From Peptococcaceae bacterium BICA1-7 (GTDB taxonomy: Bacteria; Bacillota; Desulfotomaculia; Desulfotomaculales; Desulfocucumaceae), in the NCBI GenBank assembly GCA_000802095.1, contig JUEB01000011.1, positions 1 through 64,000 of the forward strand: 64,000 bases of DNA. Direction: 5' to 3'. Below the pieces are notes generated by a model, which ran no database searches, was not told the DNA's origin, and worked only from the letters and a program-made list of their open reading frames with translations. How positions within the stretch are numbered: position 1 is the stretch's first letter; each line of letters begins with the position of its first letter. Positions 3,418 to 51,742 of the stretch are shown in pieces. The position numbers and the translations under genes are program-made.

Positions 3418-5862
3418 ATGAGTCAGCAATTGCCTTCACATGCGCAAATTGTTATCATCGGCGGAGGTATCGTGGGCTGCAGTACAGCATATCACCTGAC
3501 CAAAATGGGTTACAAGGATGTTCTGCTGCTGGAACGCAAAGAGCTGGGATCGGGAACCACCTGGGCCGCAGCCGGCCTGGTGGCACAGTTGCGCCAGAAC
3601 CAGGAAATGACCAACCTGGCCAAATACGCCACCGAGCTTTACCCCAAACTGGAGGAAGAAACCGGGGTGGCCACCGGCTATGTCACCACCGGGGCGCTGG
3701 GAGTGTGCCAGACAGAGGACCGCAGGAGGGAATGGCTCCGTGGCTCCGCCATGGCTGCCGCTTTCGGAGTCGAAATGTACGAGGTCAGCCTGAAAGAAGC
3801 CGAAGAAATGGTTCCCGGCATGAGCACAGAGGGACTGGTCAGCGCTTTTTACCTGCCTAACGACGGGCAGACCAACCCCCTGGAAACTGCCCAGGCCCTT
3901 ATTAAGGGCGCCAGAATGAGGGGCGCCAAGGTCTTCGAAAATACCAGGGTAACCGGCATCAAGCTTAACAACGGCACAGTCTGCGGTGTCAGCACCGAAT
4001 ACGGGGACATCTCCTGTGACTATGTGATTAACTGTGCAGGCATGTGGGGACGTGAAATAGGCAAAATGGCCGGTGTGAGCATTCCCCTTCACGCAGCGGT
4101 GCACATGCACGCCATTACCAAGCCTATTGAGGGCTTGAAAAAAATATTCCCCTGCGTTCGTGACTTTGACGGCAGGACCTATTTCAAAGCTGATAACAGC
4201 GCCATACTGTTCGGAGGGTTTGAGGAGATTGCCAAGCCCTGGGGAATGAAAGGCATTCCTGACAATTTTAAATTCACTGAGCTGCCGGAAGATATGGACC
4301 TATTTGAAGTATTCATGGAGTGTGGTCTGGAGAGATTCCCGGCGCTGGAAACCGCAGAGATCAGGCACATGTCCTACTGCGCGGAAAGCTTCACCCCCGA
4401 CAACGCCTTTCTGGTAGGGGAGGCTCCCGGTGTTAAAAACCTGCTGGTGGCCTGCGGAATGAACTCGGTGGGCATCGCCAGCGCAGCCGGGGCCGGCCGG
4501 GCCATAGCCCAGTGGATTAACCAGGGCTATCCGGAGGAGCAGCTGTGGCCTGTTGATGTCCGCCGCTACTTCTCCTGGCAGCAGAACAGTAAATATGTTC
4601 ATGACCGGGTCATTGAGTCAGTGGGAATACTTTATGAGCACCACTACCCCAATCGCCAGAGGACCACTGCAAGGCCGGTTATTTGCTCTCCTGTGCATGA
4701 CCGGCTGGCCCAAAACGGCGCCTGCTTCAGCATGGTGGCCGGCTGGGAGCGCGCTGACTGGTTTGCGCCGGAAGGTGTTGAGCCTGTTCATCAGTACAGC
4801 TGGGGCCGGGCCAACTGGTTTGATTCTCAGGGGGAGGAGCACAGGGCTATACGTGAAGGTGTCGGCATGTACGATTTAACCTCCATGCACAAGTACCTGT
4901 TGCAGGGCCCTGACGCCGAGGCAGCGCTTCAGAAATTATGTGCCGGTGATGTAGCCGTTCCGGTGGGGACAATAGTATATACACCAATACTCAATGACAG
5001 GGGCGGCTTTGAAACAGATTTTACCGTGACCCGCATTGCCGAGGACACCTTCTTTATCGTTACCGCAGTGGGAACCGGCGTCCGTGACTTTGATTATATA
5101 AAGCGCCGCATACCGTCAGACGCCAAAGCCTACATTACCGACGTGACACACGGGTATACCATGCTGGCATTAATGGGCCCAGACGCCAGAAAGGTCCTGT
5201 CCAAACTGACTGATGAGGATCTGTCCAACGAGGGCTTCCCCTTCAGGACTGCCAGGGAAATCGATCTGGGCTACGCCAGGGTGTGGGCCTTCAGGATTTC
5301 CTACGTCGGGGAGCTTGGGTGGGAGCTATACATTCCATCGTGCTTCGCCACAGGGGTTTTCGACGCCATTATGGAAGCGGGCAAAGAATATAACCTCCGC
5401 CTGGTGGGCATGCAGGCCGTCAACTCTCTTAGAATGGAATGCGGCTACCGCCACTGGGAATCGGACATCACGCCCGACGATACCCCGTACGAGGCAGGCC
5501 TTGGCTTCTGTGTCAAACTGGACAAGGGTGATTTTGACGGCCGTGCTGCGCTTATCAAACAAAAAGAGTGCGGCATTACCCGCAGACTTGTATTATTTAC
5601 ACTTGAAGATCCCGGGCCCATGCTTTACAAGAATGAGCCTATATTCAGAAACGGAGCGCCCATTTCCCAGACCACTTCAGGGGCATACGGCTACACTCTG
5701 GGATGTTCGGTGGCCATGGGCTACCTGAAAAACCCGGAAGGCATCACCAATGACTGGATACTGTCCGGCAAGTATGAAATATTGGTAGAAGGTAAGATGT
5801 ACCCTGCCAGGGTACACCTCCGGGCTCCTTATGATCCAAAGGGCGAGCGCACCAAAATGTAA
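3418..5862 (+). CDS. Dimethylglycine/sarcosine dehydrogenase-like flavoprotein
   Basis: 814-residue FAD enzyme predicted to oxidatively demethylate an N-methyl amine and pass electrons to ETF, encoded next door. Domains in order: DAO-type FAD-binding domain (residues about 10-370; dinucleotide motif IIGGGIVGCSTAYHL), an FAO_M linker (about 370-430), and a GcvT-like tetrahydrofolate aminomethyl domain with its C-terminal barrel (about 430-810). This is the layout of DMGDH and SARDH. The usual GTTWHAAGL motif, whose histidine carries covalent FAD, reads GTTWAAAGL here, so FAD is probably non-covalent. The start has GGGAGG 9 bases upstream. Substrate choice among dimethylglycine, sarcosine and similar amines cannot be settled from sequence. 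Confidence 0.88.
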   Translation: MSQQLPSHAQIVIIGGGIVGCSTAYHLTKMGYKDVLLLERKELGSGTTWAAAGLVAQLRQNQEMTNLAKYATELYPKLEEETGVATGYVTTGALGVCQTEDRRREWLRGSAMAAAFGVEMYEVSLKEAEEMVPGMSTEGLVSAFYLPNDGQTNPLETAQALIKGARMRGAKVFENTRVTGIKLNNGTVCGVSTEYGDISCDYVINCAGMWGREIGKMAGVSIPLHAAVHMHAITKPIEGLKKIFPCVRDFDGRTYFKADNSAILFGGFEEIAKPWGMKGIPDNFKFTELPEDMDLFEVFMECGLERFPALETAEIRHMSYCAESFTPDNAFLVGEAPGVKNLLVACGMNSVGIASAAGAGRAIAQWINQGYPEEQLWPVDVRRYFSWQQNSKYVHDRVIESVGILYEHHYPNRQRTTARPVICSPVHDRLAQNGACFSMVAGWERADWFAPEGVEPVHQYSWGRANWFDSQGEEHRAIREGVGMYDLTSMHKYLLQGPDAEAALQKLCAGDVAVPVGTIVYTPILNDRGGFETDFTVTRIAEDTFFIVTAVGTGVRDFDYIKRRIPSDAKAYITDVTHGYTMLALMGPDARKVLSKLTDEDLSNEGFPFRTAREIDLGYARVWAFRISYVGELGWELYIPSCFATGVFDAIMEAGKEYNLRLVGMQAVNSLRMECGYRHWESDITPDDTPYEAGLGFCVKLDKGDFDGRAALIKQKECGITRRLVLFTLEDPGPMLYKNEPIFRNGAPISQTTSGAYGYTLGCSVAMGYLKNPEGITNDWILSGKYEILVEGKMYPARVHLRAPYDPKGERTKM

Positions 5863-8012: not shown

Positions 8013-8219
8013 GGAGGGGGTTTAATCCAGGCGGACGTCCCGGAGGCTGCTACTGGCTCTTAGCGACAGAGCCATACGGAATGCCGGGCCGGCTGCAGGA
8101 CGCAGACGGCAGCCGGAATCGACGCATGGACGCGGCGTTGGAGGCGGCCGGCAGTCCGTAGGCGACGAGCTTAGAGCCAGTTCAGCCGGAGGTCCGGGAG
8201 ATCGGATTCAACCCCCTCC
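8013..8219 (+). ncRNA. HEARO-like structured RNA, copy 3 (diverged, intact fold)
   Basis: The outer stem pairs 8013-8028 with 8204-8219 (16 positions, one G-U). Inside, CTGGCTCTTAG (8053-8063) pairs with CTTAGAGCCAG (8170-8180); ACGGA..GCCG (8076-8086) pairs with CGGC..TCCGT (8149-8159); CCGGCTGC (8089-8096) pairs with GCAGCCGG (8109-8116). The same helices exist in the copies at 3.0 and 9.1 kb with different bases (for example CCGTCTGC/GCAGACGG), which is covariation. The 3' block GAGCTTAGAGCCAGTTCAG and the 5' block GGAGGCTG match what I recall of HEARO / IscB omega-RNA. A competing local hairpin, GGCTCT with AGAGCC (8055-8073), could be an alternative fold. The surrounding 7.9-8.3 kb has no credible gene. 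Confidence 0.65.
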
Positions 8220-12200: not shown

Positions 12201-15200
12201 ATGGGCAAAGATATTACTATATTCTGTTTAACTTTCCCTATTTTACCATCCGTGGAGATATTCAGGGATAATTTAGTTAATTCTTTACAAAATGAATTTT
12301 CGTCTGACAAACAAGTAATAGTTGTGGAAGGCACTCCCTCATCTGGTAAAACAATTTTATTATCACAATTTGCAAGGGCACAAAATGAACGAACTTTTTC
12401 TTTTTTTATCGGGGAAGATTACTGGAGTTCTGGTGTACCTTTATTTCTAAGTGATTTATGCGCACAGATGAGGCAAATAAAAACTATAAATATTTCTCAG
12501 GAGTTATTAGATCTTGATATTAATTCATTACAAGAACACCAATTAATCCATTTATTTAGTAAATTATATCAGAGTGTTATTTCACTTGCAAGAAAAGGAT
12601 TAGGCCCATATTACTTCGTTATAGACGGAATCAACAATGTATCATCTAATTATGGTGACAATAATATCTTAAAATACATACCTAACGGCAATAAATACGG
12701 AGTTTTTATTCTCTTAAGCAATAACAAAGGGGTAGAAAATCCCTTACCATTTAAACCAACTACATGGGCACTACCAATGTTTTCATTGCCAGAGACAGAA
12801 AAATATTTTAAAAATCTCCTCTTAGAAGATGAAATTAAAAAAATCCAGTCAATGTGTGAAGGAGTTCCTGGCTACCTTAGTGAAATAAAAACCCAATTAT
12901 CTAACGTATGCAATAAAAGGGAGGTTCTGGACGATTTACCTAAGGGGTTCGCAAACTTTCTTGAACGTGAGTGGTCTCACCTTGACATTAATGATGACAT
13001 TACTCTTAAAATACTAGCATTAATTACATACTCACTAGAACCACTAACCATAAATTCTGTTAGCGAAATTTTAGGTATCGGCATAGGAGCTGTCAAAGAA
13101 AGAATTAGCAGCCTAAGCTTCTGCAGGGAAAATGCCGAAAATCATTATTTAGATTTAGGACCTTATAAAATAATACTAACTAAGAAGTTAGACAAATATA
13201 AAACATTTTCAATTCAATCCCTTATTAATCACTATGAAAAACTTGGCAGTCAACAGTCAACATCAATCTATTTGCCGATTTTATATAAACAGAGCGAAAA
13301 CTTTGATGCCCTAGTTAATTTGATAAATGTGGAAAATATGATTCAGATATTGCAAGATACTAATCGAGTTTCGGTTATCAGGAGTAATTTAAATATTCTA
13401 GCAGAAATGGCCTTTTTAAAAAAAGATTGGCAGAAAATGTGCTGGGCAATCCTTGCGGAATCAGTTTTCTCTTATATTATTGAATCGGCGCCTGCAATGG
13501 AGAGCCAGATAAAAGCTTTATTAGCTCTTGGAAAAACTGAAGATGCGCAGAAAATTGCTTATGCGTGTAAACTACCTGAAGACCGTCTGCAACTCTTGAG
13601 TGATATATGTTCATTCAAATCAAGTAGGGGAGAAATTATACCTAATGATATTTTAATATCTTTGGAAGATTGTGTTAACACAATGGACATAACATTAAAC
13701 CTAACTGGGAAGGCACTAGATAAATTATTAGATATTTGTGTAAATATATTTTCTGTTAAAGCTGACGTAGCCTTTAGGCTGATTGAACGTATTGGTGAAG
13801 AAGTTGGGCTAACATCAATGAAAGATCATTTGATGGATGTGTTCTTGGCAAGATTAATGCTGAGACTAGGGCCAAATTCAGAGAATCTAGATAAGATAGG
13901 TTTAAAAATTAAAGATGAGAGAATTCATGATTTTGCTAAATTTGCTACTACACCTTTAGTTGTCAATGAAAGCACTATATTGGAGCAAATAGAAAATGTT
14001 TCAGACACATCAATAAAAATCTTCCTTTTACAACAGTGGTGCGATGCAAATAAAGATAACGATAAAACTTATATAGTTGTTGATAAAGCAATAGGAATTT
14101 TGGAAAATAGTGAGGATTATACACCGTCCCACTTTAGCATGAGAATATTTGCTAATTCTCTTTCAAACTGTGCAGATGAAAACGTTATAAAAGGGCACAT
14201 TAAGAGAATAGATTCCCTTAAAGCAACTCTTATTAAGAATCCTATAGACGAATTAACTAGATTGGAACTCACCCTTGCTACTATAGAAAATAAATTTAAT
14301 CACGACCATGCTGTAGAAAGGCTGTACAATGTTTACTTCAAATTGAGTGAGATTAATGACACTGATATTAAGTGCCTTATCTTAGTGAGGCTCATTCACC
14401 AAGCAAATATATTAATACCAGAAGACACATCTCTAATTAATGAGATGCGTATTGAACTTATTAAAGAATATGACATTCTCATGGCAAATTCAGCTAGCCA
14501 ATATAGAATCACAGAAAAAATCCTCTCAGCTCTGTCAGAAACTGATCCCACATTGGCAATAAAATTTGCCGAGAGAATAAATTTAGAATCTCGCCGCGAT
14601 AGTGCTTACCAACTCATTTTAAAAATTTATACAAAAGATAATTTAGATAAGGTGGACTTTGATTTTATAGATGTAGTTTTAGAAAGAATCAAAGATAATT
14701 ATCTAAGGATGCTTGTCGTCAGAGAAATTATCAAGCGCTTCTCAGAAGAGACAGATAATTGCAATATTAACCAAAAGAAAAAATTTATATCACAGATAAT
14801 ACATATGAAAAGCAGTATTATTAGGGCCTACACGTTTGCATATCTACTTGTTTGGATACATGATGACGACATAGACACATATACAAGCATATCCCCTAAA
14901 CTAATAGATTTCATTGAAAATATTGATCCGTATTGGAGGAGAGTTAGTTTAGGATTTGAGATCTCATCTATTATAGCAACAAAAGATAAAACTCTAGCCA
15001 ATAAAATATATGAGCAGTCAATAAAACAGCAAAATGACTCCCTATTCTCAGATGAAAGATTATCGCTAATATATATTGAGATTTGCCATTTAGCTATAAG
15101 AATGATACCTGATATAATTAAAGAAAACTTCAAAGAGTACTCGGATATAATCAAAAAAGCAATTATGTGCGTACCCTCTATTTATTACCAGTGTGTATTA

Positions 15201-41661: not shown

Positions 41662-44193
41662 TCAGGCGGTAACAATTTGGCTATCGGCTTGCAGACCAAA
41701 CTTTTCTACCGCCTGCTCGCGCATTTTGTATTTCAGAACCTTTAAGGCTGCATTCATTGGAAATTCGGTTACGAAATCTACGTAACGGGGGGTTTTGTGT
41801 TTGGCCATGTGTGAACGGACAAAATCTTTCAGCTGGTCGGCGGTCATTTCTTCACCGTCTTTTAGAATAACACACGCCATAATCTCCTCGCCGTACTGCT
41901 TGTCAGGCACACCTATAACCTGAACGTCCCTGACCTTGGGATGGGTATAGATAAAATCCTCAATCTCCTTGGGATAAATATTCTCGCCTCCGCGGATGAT
42001 CATATCCTTAATACGCCCGGTGATTTTGAAATAACCATGAGCATCACGCCTGGCAAGGTCTCCGGTGTGCAGCCACCCGTTCTCATCAATGGCTGCCGCT
42101 GTAGCCTCGGGCATCTTGTAGTAGCCCTTCATTATATTATAGCCCCGGGCGACAAACTCGCCGTCCACATTGTCGGGCAAATCCTCCCCTGTATGCGGAT
42201 CAACAATCTTACACTCAACTCCCGGCAGTGCCCTGCCCACAGTGCTTACACGCAACTCGACAGAATCATCAACCCTGCTCTGGGTGCAGCCGGGGGAAGA
42301 TTCTGTCTGCCCAAAGACAATGGTAACCTGATTCATATTCATCTTGCCCACCACGTCCTGCATAACTTTGACAGGGCAAGGGCTGCCTGCCATAATGCCG
42401 GTTCTCATATAGGAAAAGTCTGTCTTGGGGAAATCCTCATGCTCTAACAATGCGATAAACATAGTGGGAACACCATGGAAGCAGGTAATTTTCTCCTTGT
42501 TAATACAGGCCAGCGACTCTTTCGGAGAGAAATACGGCAGCGGGGAAAGAGTAGCGCCATGGGTCATTGAGGCAGTCATCGCCAGCACCATTCCAAAGCA
42601 ATGGAACATAGGCACCTGAACCATCATGCGGTCAGCGGTGGAAAGGTCCATGCAGTCGCCGATGTTTTTGCCGTTGTTCACCACATTGTAGTGGGTAAGC
42701 ATAACCCCCTTGGGGAAGCCGGTTGTTCCGGATGTATACTGTATGTTGCAGACGTCATGTTTTTTGATGGTAGCCGCCAGGTGGTAAACCTTTTCAATGG
42801 GAGCCTTTTCAGCCATATCTATGGCCTCTTCCCATGTCAGGCAGCCATTTAGCTTCGAGTCAATGGTAACGATGTTGCGCAGAAAAGGCAACCGCTTAAT
42901 ATGTAGTGGCTTTCCTGCCTCGGCAGTTTCCAATTCGGGACAAAGTTTCTTGATAATGTCAACATAATCGGAATCCTTATACCCGTCAATCATTACCAGA
43001 GTGTGAGTGTCCGACTGGCGGAGCAAATACTCGGCTTCATAAATTTTGTAAGCTGTATTCACAGTTACGAGAACTGCACCTATTTTTGTGGTTGCCCAGA
43101 AGGTTATAAACCACTGAGGAACGTTAGTTGCCCAGATGGCCACATGGTCACCCGGCTTGACACCCATAGCAATAAGCGACCGGGCAAAGGTATCCACATC
43201 GTCCCGGAACTGGGAATAGGTTCTTGTATAATCAATTGTGGAATATCGAAAGGCATACTGGTTGGGAAACTCATCCACCATGCGGTCAAGCACCTGCGGG
43301 AAAGTAAGATCGATCAGAGCATCCTTTTCCCAGACATATTTCCCGGTCTTGGCCATGTTATCGAATAGATGGCTCTTCACTTTAGTTTTTTCAATGTAGT
43401 GCTTCATATAGTTTGCAAAGTGAGGAAAGACAACTCCCGCATCGCCAAGGTCAGCCGCCCAGCGTTTGACCCACTCGAGGGAAACATATCCATCGTAGTT
43501 AATGGAGCGCAGGGCAAATACCATATCGTCAATGGGCAAATCACCCTCACCCATCATGCGGTACTTAACCACCCCATTTTCCACTACCGAGTCTTTCACA
43601 TGTACATACTTAATATAGGCGCCGAGGTTCTGTACGGTCTTGCCTGGTGTTTCACCCGCAAACCGGTAAGGATGGTGAATATCCCACAGGGCGGCCACAG
43701 CATCACTGGCCACACTGTCCAGCAGTTCCCGTAAGCGTGCTGTGTCAGAATAGACGCCGTTAGTTTCCACCAGCAGGGTCACGCCTTTTTCTTCAGCAAC
43801 CGGGACCAGGCGCTGCAGTGCGGCCAGAACTGTATTATCGTCCACCTCGGCGGTGGGATGCGGCTCAAGGTCAGCCAGGATACGTATGTAGGGTGTGCCC
43901 AGTTTGGAGGCCAGCATAATGTATTGTACAATCTCTTGATAGTTTTCCTCCGCCCTTTCGGCAAACCTCAAGCAACAGCCGGAAGAAAGGCAAGGAATTT
44001 CCAGACGCAGATCTGAGAGCTTTTTTGAGGTTTCAGGCAACTGGCTTTCAGTGAAAGGCTGGGCATGGACAGCAAAGATTTCTGTGCCCAGCCCGCGAAT
44101 TTCAATACCGTCAAAACCAATATCTTTGGCCATGGAATAAATGTCAGTCCAACTGAAATCAGGACAGCCAAGGGTCGAGAACGCAATTTTCAT
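41662..44193 (-). CDS. Fusion of a sugar-isomerase-like TIM barrel and an acyl-CoA synthetase
   Basis: 843 residues. Residues 1 to about 270 are an AP-endonuclease-2/xylose-isomerase-like TIM barrel (KIAFSTLGCPDFSWTDIY, LLVETNGVYSDTARLRELLD, ALWDIHHPYRFAGETPG, YVHVKDS, metal ligands E, D, H, E). Residues about 290-840 are a full ANL acyl-CoA ligase: YTSGTTGFPKGVMLTHYN, FGQTESSPG, HTGDLARRDAHGYFKITGR, and the C-terminal lysine in ALKVLKYKMRE. AGGAGG lies 9 bases before the ATG. A T-box leader with its own promoter lies upstream, so expression responds to an uncharged tRNA. The combination suggests one polypeptide handling an isomerase/aldolase-like step and CoA activation; the substrate is unknown. 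Confidence 0.88.
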   Translation of the reverse strand: MKIAFSTLGCPDFSWTDIYSMAKDIGFDGIEIRGLGTEIFAVHAQPFTESQLPETSKKLSDLRLEIPCLSSGCCLRFAERAEENYQEIVQYIMLASKLGTPYIRILADLEPHPTAEVDDNTVLAALQRLVPVAEEKGVTLLVETNGVYSDTARLRELLDSVASDAVAALWDIHHPYRFAGETPGKTVQNLGAYIKYVHVKDSVVENGVVKYRMMGEGDLPIDDMVFALRSINYDGYVSLEWVKRWAADLGDAGVVFPHFANYMKHYIEKTKVKSHLFDNMAKTGKYVWEKDALIDLTFPQVLDRMVDEFPNQYAFRYSTIDYTRTYSQFRDDVDTFARSLIAMGVKPGDHVAIWATNVPQWFITFWATTKIGAVLVTVNTAYKIYEAEYLLRQSDTHTLVMIDGYKDSDYVDIIKKLCPELETAEAGKPLHIKRLPFLRNIVTIDSKLNGCLTWEEAIDMAEKAPIEKVYHLAATIKKHDVCNIQYTSGTTGFPKGVMLTHYNVVNNGKNIGDCMDLSTADRMMVQVPMFHCFGMVLAMTASMTHGATLSPLPYFSPKESLACINKEKITCFHGVPTMFIALLEHEDFPKTDFSYMRTGIMAGSPCPVKVMQDVVGKMNMNQVTIVFGQTESSPGCTQSRVDDSVELRVSTVGRALPGVECKIVDPHTGEDLPDNVDGEFVARGYNIMKGYYKMPEATAAAIDENGWLHTGDLARRDAHGYFKITGRIKDMIIRGGENIYPKEIEDFIYTHPKVRDVQVIGVPDKQYGEEIMACVILKDGEEMTADQLKDFVRSHMAKHKTPRYVDFVTEFPMNAALKVLKYKMREQAVEKFGLQADSQIVTA

Positions 44194-44261
44194 AGTAATC
44201 TCCTCCTAAGTTGCTTAGGGCCTTTAATTGGTCCGGCCCGCTTTTTACTTTTGTCCAGGGG

Positions 44262-44570
44262 CAAAAAAAAACCCTCGTCTCATAACATTCCTGCAAGAGA
44301 CGAAAGCGTTAACTCCCGTGGTACCACTCTAATTGGTATGAACCATACCCACTTTGCGGCATCAATCAAAAAGATCAATACCCTCTCGTTATAACGGTGA
44401 GAAACCGGTTCGCACCTACTTGCTTCAAGCCGGTCAATGGCTATAGCAGCTTTCAGAGGACTGCTCAAGGGGGAGTTCATAACTGCTTTCGCGCACTGTT
44501 TTTCAGCAACCAACAGCTCTCTGGGGCACAATACCGCAGCATGTTTTCCTATCATCGCATTTACTGATTT
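44262..44570 (-). promoter_or_regulatory. T-box riboswitch
   Basis: On the minus strand the T-box sequence AGAGTGGTACCACGGGAGTT lies at 44311-44330, followed by the terminator stem CGTCTC (44297-44302) with GAGACG (44276-44281) and nine T residues. Stem I upstream has the AGAGAG and GNUG-type motifs (44495-44525), and CAUGCUGC pairs with GCAGUUAUG above the specifier loop. The specifier lies in AACUCCC; CUC (Leu) is my tentative reading. It controls the fusion gene 69 bases downstream. Confidence 0.88.
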
Positions 44571-44577
44571 GTGGACT

Positions 44578-44606
44578 ATATTATTGGTTCTCGCTGTTTT
44601 TGTCAA
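44578..44606 (-). promoter_or_regulatory. Promoter of the T-box transcript
   Basis: TTGACA (44601-44606), 17 bases, TAATAT (44578-44583) on the minus strand, placing the RNA start at about 44571. Confidence 0.65.
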
Positions 44607-50206: not shown

Positions 50207-51205
50207 TTATACTGGCTTTACCGGAATGCAGATATCCACTATGGCCTTACCTTCGCAATGGGTATTGGGGTCGTTATGGTACATCTCAAAACTGGGCCGA
50301 TCATCCGGCAAATAACCGCTCTCCGGCAACCAGGCGCCAAAAACCCAATCCCAGGCTTCCTGGTATTCTTTTTCTCCCAACTCAAACCTGGCCAGTGCGT
50401 ATCTGCCGGCTGGGATGAGCAATTTTCCGACCTCCCCTTCCACAGCTGTGTCCGAGGGCACCGTGATGCAAACACTGACCCGGAGCTTTTCATCCTCAGT
50501 CACCTCAGGGTTGTCGTGGTACACTATAATAGATTTGGTTGCCGGAAAGTTGATCAGGTTTCGGGGGCCTGCCCACTGGAACAATTGCTTGTACAAGCGC
50601 TCAAACAGTTGGCCGTCACCCTTGTAGGGTCCCACATAACGCACATATGCCAGGGTCATCTCCGCCAATTCCTTTACTTCAACTATCCTAGTCTGGTTTT
50701 CCATGACGCACCTCCACAATTGAGTGTTATTGATATACTCAATATAAACCAGGGAGGCGGGAGGTTCTTCTCCTGTGTTGCTTTTCATTTTTCCCAGATT
50801 GCTATAGTCGCAGTCTTTGCGGTTGCGCCAGTCGGTTGCGGAAACTCCAAAGTTCTTTTTAAAGCTTTTGGCGAAGGAGGATGAATTGGCAAAACCGCAT
50901 TCCAGGGCAATGTCGGTCACCGGCTTGTCAGGTTCATTCAACAATAACGTCGCGCTTTTTTCCAGGCGCAGCCGCTGGATAAACTGAAACAGTGTCTCCC
51001 CGGAATAGGTATAGAATATGCGGTGGAAATGAAATTTGGAAAAGCCGGCTTTGTAGGCCAGCTCATCCAGAGTAAAATTGCGATCAATGTTTTTTTCTAT
51101 ATAATCCACTACTTCATTAATCCCTGACAGGTACTGCTCCCGCAATTGTTTTCTCCATACATAGCCTGCTTTTTGCATGGTAGGCATTTCCTCCAAATCT
51201 CCCAT
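50207..51205 (-). CDS. AraC-type regulator with GyrI-like effector domain
   Basis: 332 residues: AraC double HTH (YIEKNIDRNFTLDELAYKAG, SKFHFHRIFYTYSGETLFQF, DIALECGFANSSSFAKSFKK) followed from about residue 170 by a GyrI/SOUL-like ligand-binding domain (VKELAEMTLAYVRYVGPYKG, ending VDICIPVKPV), as in Rob/BmrR-like drug-responsive regulators. The frame is open upstream into a truncated IS3 transposase, giving a 511-codon in-frame fusion (to 51742). The ATG at 51205 follows AGAGGG by 10 bases; ATG 51178, after GGAGG, is also possible. Confidence 0.82.
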   Translation of the reverse strand: MGDLEEMPTMQKAGYVWRKQLREQYLSGINEVVDYIEKNIDRNFTLDELAYKAGFSKFHFHRIFYTYSGETLFQFIQRLRLEKSATLLLNEPDKPVTDIALECGFANSSSFAKSFKKNFGVSATDWRNRKDCDYSNLGKMKSNTGEEPPASLVYIEYINNTQLWRCVMENQTRIVEVKELAEMTLAYVRYVGPYKGDGQLFERLYKQLFQWAGPRNLINFPATKSIIVYHDNPEVTEDEKLRVSVCITVPSDTAVEGEVGKLLIPAGRYALARFELGEKEYQEAWDWVFGAWLPESGYLPDDRPSFEMYHNDPNTHCEGKAIVDICIPVKPV

Positions 51206-51224
51206 TGGAACACTTCCCTCTTGA

Positions 51225-51742
51225 AAATCCACGATACACCGGCTGCACCAGTCAATAATTACAAACAGATACATGAAGCCTTTTTCCATTCGAATATATG
51301 TAATATCTACGCCCCAGACCTGGTCTGGATGGTCAATGGTCAGGTTCCTCAGTAGATAAGGCCGAACATACTGGGCGTGAAACCGCTTACTTAGATTGGG
51401 TTTAGGATAAATGGTGTAAATCCCCATCTCTCGCATCATTCGGCGTACTTTTTTCCTGTTAATCAGTAGATAATCATCCCGTCTCAGAATCCGTGTGATG
51501 GTTCGATAACCCCAGGTGGGGTGAGCCGTGTGGATTTCATCGATCCGGCGCATCACAAATAAATCCTCATCAGAGATGGGCTTCTGTTCAGGGGGCTGGC
51601 GGTATACGCTGGTGCGATTGATGTTTAATAATTCAGCCTGACGCTTGACGCTGATGTGGGGATTATTTCGCTCAACGAAATCTTTTCTTCCAGTCTGGTC
51701 CGACAATTTCTTCAGATTTTTTTTTGAGCCAGTCCACCTCAT
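51225..51742 (-). pseudogene. Truncated IS3-family transposase OrfB
   Basis: About 172 codons: HTH_21 region (ISVKRQAELLNINRTSVYRQ, HPTWGYRTITRILRRDDYLL) and the first strand of the rve integrase core (QVWGVDITYIRMEKGFMYLF) with the first catalytic aspartate. The second aspartate and the glutamate are absent, so it cannot transpose. Confidence 0.85.

Follow-up and report, generated by a model that had tools for sequence, protein, structure and literature searches.

A leucine-specific T-box leader upstream of a TIM-barrel/acyl-CoA ligase fusion gene, with a probable link to leucine synthesis from isovalerate

The 64,000-nucleotide stretch of DNA analysed here (the window) carries, on its minus strand, a complete T-box leader with a leucine specifier. 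It precedes a gene whose product consists of a xylose-isomerase-like TIM barrel followed by an AMP-forming acyl-CoA ligase. The riboswitch itself is, by its sequence, an ordinary Leu-specific transcription-termination T-box. Its novelty, judging from the searchable literature, lies in what it controls: an acid-activating enzyme that carries a TIM barrel and whose relatives' gene contexts lead toward a branched-chain-acid route to leucine. On balance, we favor a model in which leucine starvation turns on isovalerate activation, feeding leucine synthesis through reductive carboxylation. The elements of the locus are as follows.

44578..44606, minus strand: predicted sigma-70 promoter TTGACA-17-TAATAT, identical to the consensus at 10 of 12 positions (a consensus match only)
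44293..44564, minus strand: T-box leader, full length (RF00230)
44461..44561, minus strand: stem I with specifier loop and apical motif AGAGAGCUG (stem I model R1, covariation)
44473..44475, minus strand: specifier codon CUC (leucine; CTC in the DNA), register from eight T-boxes of the same genome
44297..44330, minus strand: T-box core and antiterminator (RF00230 alignment; antiterminator pairing read by eye)
44323..44326, minus strand: UGGU bulge, complementary to the tRNA 3' end ACCA (sequence)
44263..44307, minus strand: intrinsic terminator, 11-bp stem plus U9 (folding)
44200..44207, minus strand: ribosome-binding site AGGAGGAG (sequence)
41662..44193, minus strand: fusion gene, 843 amino acids (open reading frame and Pfam)
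43366..44193, minus strand: N-terminal xylose-isomerase-like TIM barrel, residues 1-276 (PF01261; E143, D171, H198, and E240 invariant)
41665..43326, minus strand: C-terminal AMP-forming acyl-CoA ligase, about residues 290-843 (PF00501 and PF13193)

A first-pass annotation of this DNA claimed a complete T-box comprising promoter, stem I, T-box sequence, and terminator. All four parts were found, and its coordinates were right. The RF00230 covariance model matches over its full length at 44564-44293 on the minus strand (98.2 bits against a gathering score of 93; E 2.2e-20), and 100 nt separate the end of the leader from the start of the fusion gene. The terminator hairpin and its U9 tract, ending near 44263, fold with a free energy of -18.8 kcal/mol (z -1.9). 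The model-aligned antiterminator and the folded terminator are predicted to be mutually exclusive.

Stem I was described further with a model, R1, built from 26 orthologous leaders. The window stem I scores 82.2 bits, the window itself being among the training sequences. Across the 26 stem I sequences the consensus contains 19 pairs, and in 16 of them both sides vary; standard pairs occupy 93% of the pair cells compared with 76% in shuffles, and none of 500 shuffles reaches the observed values. Because the structure was derived from the same alignment, the slid controls are biased toward it and the comparison is not fully independent. RF00230 agrees with R1 on six other leaders, and the orthologous leaders score 93.5-123.5 bits. 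The window stem I alone folds no better than its shuffles (z -0.5); support for stem I comes from the covariance model and conservation, not from single-sequence folding. (A second stem I match in the window, at 14181-14283, is weak, with E 0.41, and was taken as chance.)

The specifier register was calibrated against eight T-boxes from elsewhere in this genome, each in front of a known gene (names read from the protein sequences): leuS, CUC; ileS, AUC; valS, GUC; pheS, UUC; thrS, ACC; metG, AUG; glyQ, GGA; and ilvD, AUC. In this frame the window specifier is CUC, which bears out the leucine codon that had been proposed from the sequence. Neither of the outcomes named in advance as refuting, a failed RF00230 match or a non-leucine specifier, occurred. 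The genome also encodes tRNA-Leu(GAG), with discriminator A and the 3' end A-CCA (L225), matching the UGGU bulge.

Orthologous loci give a consistent reading. A stem I match lies upstream in 44 of the 78 fusion loci searched (the truncated L081, and L091, were left out), and none was found in the other 34. All 42 readable orthologous leaders carry a leucine codon (35 CUC, 7 CUG), as do eight further fusion leaders from the phylum sample, all CUC. The amino acid is thus conserved though the codon differs, since CUC and CUG both specify leucine. Some leaders look decayed: that of L047, roughly 100-250 nt upstream of the fusion start at 3432, has apparently lost stem I and retains the downstream T-box part and terminator, and the fusion leaders of L049 and L051 likewise give a decayed impression.

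The gene downstream is also what the annotation had described, a fusion of a TIM barrel to a CoA ligase. Pfam scores for the 843-residue protein all exceed their cut-offs: PF01261, 106.6 bits (cut-off 31.1); PF00501, 305.5; and PF13193, 67.4. The ligase domain has the conserved P-loop YTSGTTGFPKG, and its best NCBIfam match is PRK12583 / NF009233, at 696.2 bits, below the curated cut-off of 832. A structure model of the full-length protein (pTM 0.58) is informative for the ligase fold only.

Modelled separately, the TIM barrel reaches a pLDDT of 92.6. Its nearest solved folds by Foldseek are AsbF (3dx5), Art22 (9koj), and the D-psicose/D-tagatose 3-epimerases (E about 5e-13, TM about 0.75, 16-22% identity). 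Residues Glu143, Asp171, His198, and Glu240 are invariant in 25 of 25 TIM-barrel sequences and occupy the expected position, consistent with a metal site. TIM-only homologues were absent from 60 close relatives at E 1e-12, and turned up only in a wider search of the phylum. (Remoter TIM-barrel relatives, 38-39% identical, adjoin a glutaminyl-tRNA-synthetase-like gene, read by eye, in L304 and L306.)

Orthologues of the fusion are 70-86% identical and almost all full length; 80 loci were fetched, nearly all from Clostridia (at least 78 Clostridia loci full length), many of them of rumen, gut, or anaerobic-digester origin. Of 299 genomes sampled evenly across the phylum, about 15 carry the fusion. 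One copy, G349:C1:1145766-1148294, is split over several frames, through decay or sequencing error.

Gene neighborhoods of the fusion itself offer little guidance. No pathway gene adjoins it in the window, and no conserved neighbor emerged, the commonest families occurring in 3-5 of about 79 loci. In L177 and L179 (G029, G071), a gene for an XRE-cupin-like regulator and a second AMP-ligase gene follow the fusion on the same strand; this ligase family is also present in L049, L058, L085, L106, and L124.

The link to leucine extends to related ligases encoded separately. In order-level relatives, ligases about 50% identical have a Leu T-box in 22 of 23 loci, all with CUC. Directly after the ligase comes leuS, in all 20 loci that were enlarged and in seven more cases (27 in total), making the ligase the first gene of a leuS operon. 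In the source genome, leuS (L173) sits behind a CUC T-box of its own and is not accompanied by a ligase; genome G029 holds a ligase of the leuS-operon type as well as a fusion.

A second arrangement is that of the closest separate ligases, at 55-60% identity. Here a separate TIM gene comes next, its product 40-46% identical to the fused barrel (nine pairs). Gene order in these operons is ligase then TIM, whereas the TIM barrel is N-terminal in the fusion. No T-box was detected near these ligases. In seven of eight testable cases (L256, L259, L260, L261, L295, L297, and L301), the pair is followed by genes for a four-subunit 2-oxoacid:ferredoxin oxidoreductase, with gamma, alpha, and beta subunits present, though not all called everywhere. 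Of the remaining pairs, L257 stops at a contig end and L258 lacks other pathway genes. Two operons, L256 and L261, were tested. The gamma subunits of both, and the delta subunit of L261, score above the cut-offs for the pyruvate/2-ketoisovalerate family (TIGR02175, TIGR02179); the alpha and beta subunits stay under equivalog cut-offs, and beta matches 3-methyl-2-oxobutanoate dehydrogenase best. In L261, ilvD and ilvN, both above cut-off, lie upstream of the ligase gene on the same strand. An acyl-CoA ligase beside such an oxidoreductase, once together with ilvD-ilvN, fits reductive carboxylation of a branched acyl-CoA to a 2-oxo acid.

A third setting involves the paralogues L158 and L161 (48-49% identical, without a T-box), which lie with genes for an acyl-CoA dehydrogenase, a carboxyltransferase, and an enoyl-CoA hydratase; the L158 cluster also has an HMG-CoA-lyase-like gene. 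These clusters resemble ones for leucine/isovalerate breakdown, an argument weakened because the enzyme matches fall below curated cut-offs.

The ligase-domain tree places the fusions in a single clade on their own branch. Fusion ligases and TIM-operon ligases group together in one clade that excludes the leuS-operon ligases (support 100/99). An origin of the fusion in a leuS operon was considered; it is unsupported because the leuS-operon ligases are not the closest kin of the fusion.

Regulation can be proposed by homology. T-boxes of this type increase transcription when their tRNA is uncharged (PMC7778990), so the fusion product should help the cell to regain leucine. During leucine shortage, uncharged tRNA-Leu(GAG) would pair with the leader at two sites, the CUC of stem I and the UGGU bulge, allowing the antiterminator to form and the fusion gene to be transcribed. 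The ligase domain at the C terminus would convert a branched-chain carboxylic acid, most probably isovalerate, into the corresponding CoA thioester. Isovaleryl-CoA would then be reductively carboxylated by a 2-oxoacid:ferredoxin oxidoreductase to 2-oxoisocaproate, and transamination would yield leucine. The N-terminal TIM barrel would serve the same pathway as a metal-dependent, isomerase-like enzyme.

A branched-chain substrate had been suggested from the specifier. The leuS operons, the ligase-TIM-oxidoreductase operons (once with ilvD-ilvN), and the degradation-like cluster all back that suggestion, and isovalerate is the probable acid. The implication that the target departs from the rule of T-boxes controlling synthetases and amino-acid genes fares less well: the rule is not really broken, because the fusion is probably an amino-acid biosynthesis gene. 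A more specific assignment is offered tentatively, as possible but doubtful: the fusion supplies the acid-activating enzyme of the clostridial isovalerate-to-leucine pathway, and its TIM barrel catalyzes a further, undescribed step.

The TIM barrel could instead be the leucine-relevant part, isomerizing or dehydrating an intermediate of an alternative route whose product the ligase then activates. The metal ligands retained in all 25 sequences would suit such a role. The barrel occurs fused to the ligase, adjoining the ligase, or adjoining the oxidoreductase, and in L303 it is tied to the oxidoreductase with no ligase adjacent. However, the Leu-T-box ligases of the leuS operons lack a TIM barrel, and to our knowledge no known leucine step uses a TIM-barrel fold of the xylose-isomerase-like type. 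We regard this arrangement as very improbable.

Another possibility is that the ligase acts on some other acid (2-oxo- or 2-hydroxyisocaproate, for instance, or an aromatic one), the Leu T-box having been recombined from a leuS leader without metabolic meaning. Neighboring ligase paralogues are found in other fatty-acid clusters, and the 34 fusion loci without a stem I match might be read in the same way; T-boxes are known to duplicate and move (PMC2494555, PMC3766115). Yet leucine specificity is kept through the CUC/CUG change in many genomes, which argues for selection on leucine sensing. Moreover, three unrelated contexts (leuS, degradation cluster, and oxidoreductase operon) point to branched-chain metabolism. 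We regard this reading, another acid with a borrowed T-box, as decidedly unlikely.

The source genome has leuA. Among 50 fusion genomes, leuA exceeds its cut-off in 25. In 22 of the remaining 25, a yeast-type leuA scores more than 600 bits; both types are missing only from the genomes of L055 and L085, and that of L110 has a partial gene. Loss of leuA as proof of an alternative route was rejected, as there is no general replacement among these genomes. With a bacterial- or yeast-type leuA present, the isovalerate route would be at most supplementary in most of the sampled fusion genomes; in the source genome it would be a salvage or energy-saving supplement. That genome contains one PFOR-like and three other oxidoreductase alpha-subunit genes, and no close copy of the operon-type oxidoreductase (best 28%), its alpha subunits being distant (27-29%).

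These observations bear on a further alternative, in which isovaleryl-CoA serves as primer for iso-branched membrane fatty acids and exogenous isovalerate replaces failing leucine breakdown when leucine is scarce. Substrate and regulatory logic would be the same; as a rule no carboxylating enzyme lies beside the window gene or the other fusions; and the source genome can make leucine via leuA. But the relatives' operons are linked to the 2-oxoacid:ferredoxin oxidoreductase and ilvD-ilvN, not to fatty-acid genes, and the linkage to leuS points to leucine for translation. We consider a lipid role unlikely, and retain the proposal that activated isovalerate would feed leucine synthesis.

Several features were noted apart from this argument. 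The leuS Leu T-box leader of the source genome contains a complete tRNA-Ala(GGC) gene nested at stem III (L173:5070-5366, C29). The same nesting occurs in leuS or ligase-leuS leaders of relatives from several families (L133, L134, L138, L140, L157, L160, L163, and L169). A short helix flanks the nested gene; by eye, its sequence varies between genomes and its pairing is kept. The nested copy is the only tRNA-Ala(GGC) among 49 tRNA matches in the source genome, an assembly that may lack some rRNA-linked tRNAs. Elsewhere in the window, positions 8038-8194 (plus strand) match the TwoAYGGAY RNA at 48.5 bits (gathering score 43). An open frame at 50207-51742 (minus strand) has, by eye, an IS3-type transposase-like start followed by an AraC/GyrI-like regulator, as if what is left of a transposase had become linked to a regulator gene.

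For rumen ruminococci, branched-chain volatile fatty acids act as growth factors. Together, the Leu-T-box ligase and the putative carboxylating-enzyme operons of its relatives supply named candidate genes for an isovalerate-to-leucine pathway. More generally, the case illustrates how the specifier of a riboswitch can predict which class of substrate an enzyme uses when similarity of sequence alone does not place that enzyme.

The window leader shares with the Leu T-box leaders of leuS, ilv-leu, and leuA (RF00230) the CUC of stem I, the UGGU of the T-box core, and the antiterminator/terminator switch; the leuS T-box of the same genome has the identical specifier. It differs in its target, which activates a carboxylic acid, whereas the usual targets are synthetases, enzymes of amino-acid biosynthesis, or transporters. 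Such a target goes unmentioned in the main texts of the T-box surveys PMC2494555 and PMC3766115, and a Leu-T-box acyl-CoA ligase is unreported in the searchable papers.

The ligase domain finds its best family match among the PRK12583 / NF009233 ligases, yet remains below their cut-off, with the fusions on a branch of their own. The TIM barrel shares its fold and conserved E/D/H/E residues with AsbF, Art22, and the ketose 3-epimerases at only 16-22% identity, and unlike them it is linked to an acyl-CoA ligase, either by fusion or within an operon.

It is well established that isovalerate is carboxylated to leucine in ruminococci and in the rumen (Allison 1962, 1966, as cited in PMC7356843). 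No paper in the searchable literature assigns the ligase, TIM, or oxidoreductase genes to this pathway or names its activating gene. The rumen pathway was defined by isotope incorporation. It would use an acyl-CoA ligase and a 2-oxoacid:ferredoxin oxidoreductase, the two activities whose putative genes lie side by side in L256, L260, and L261.
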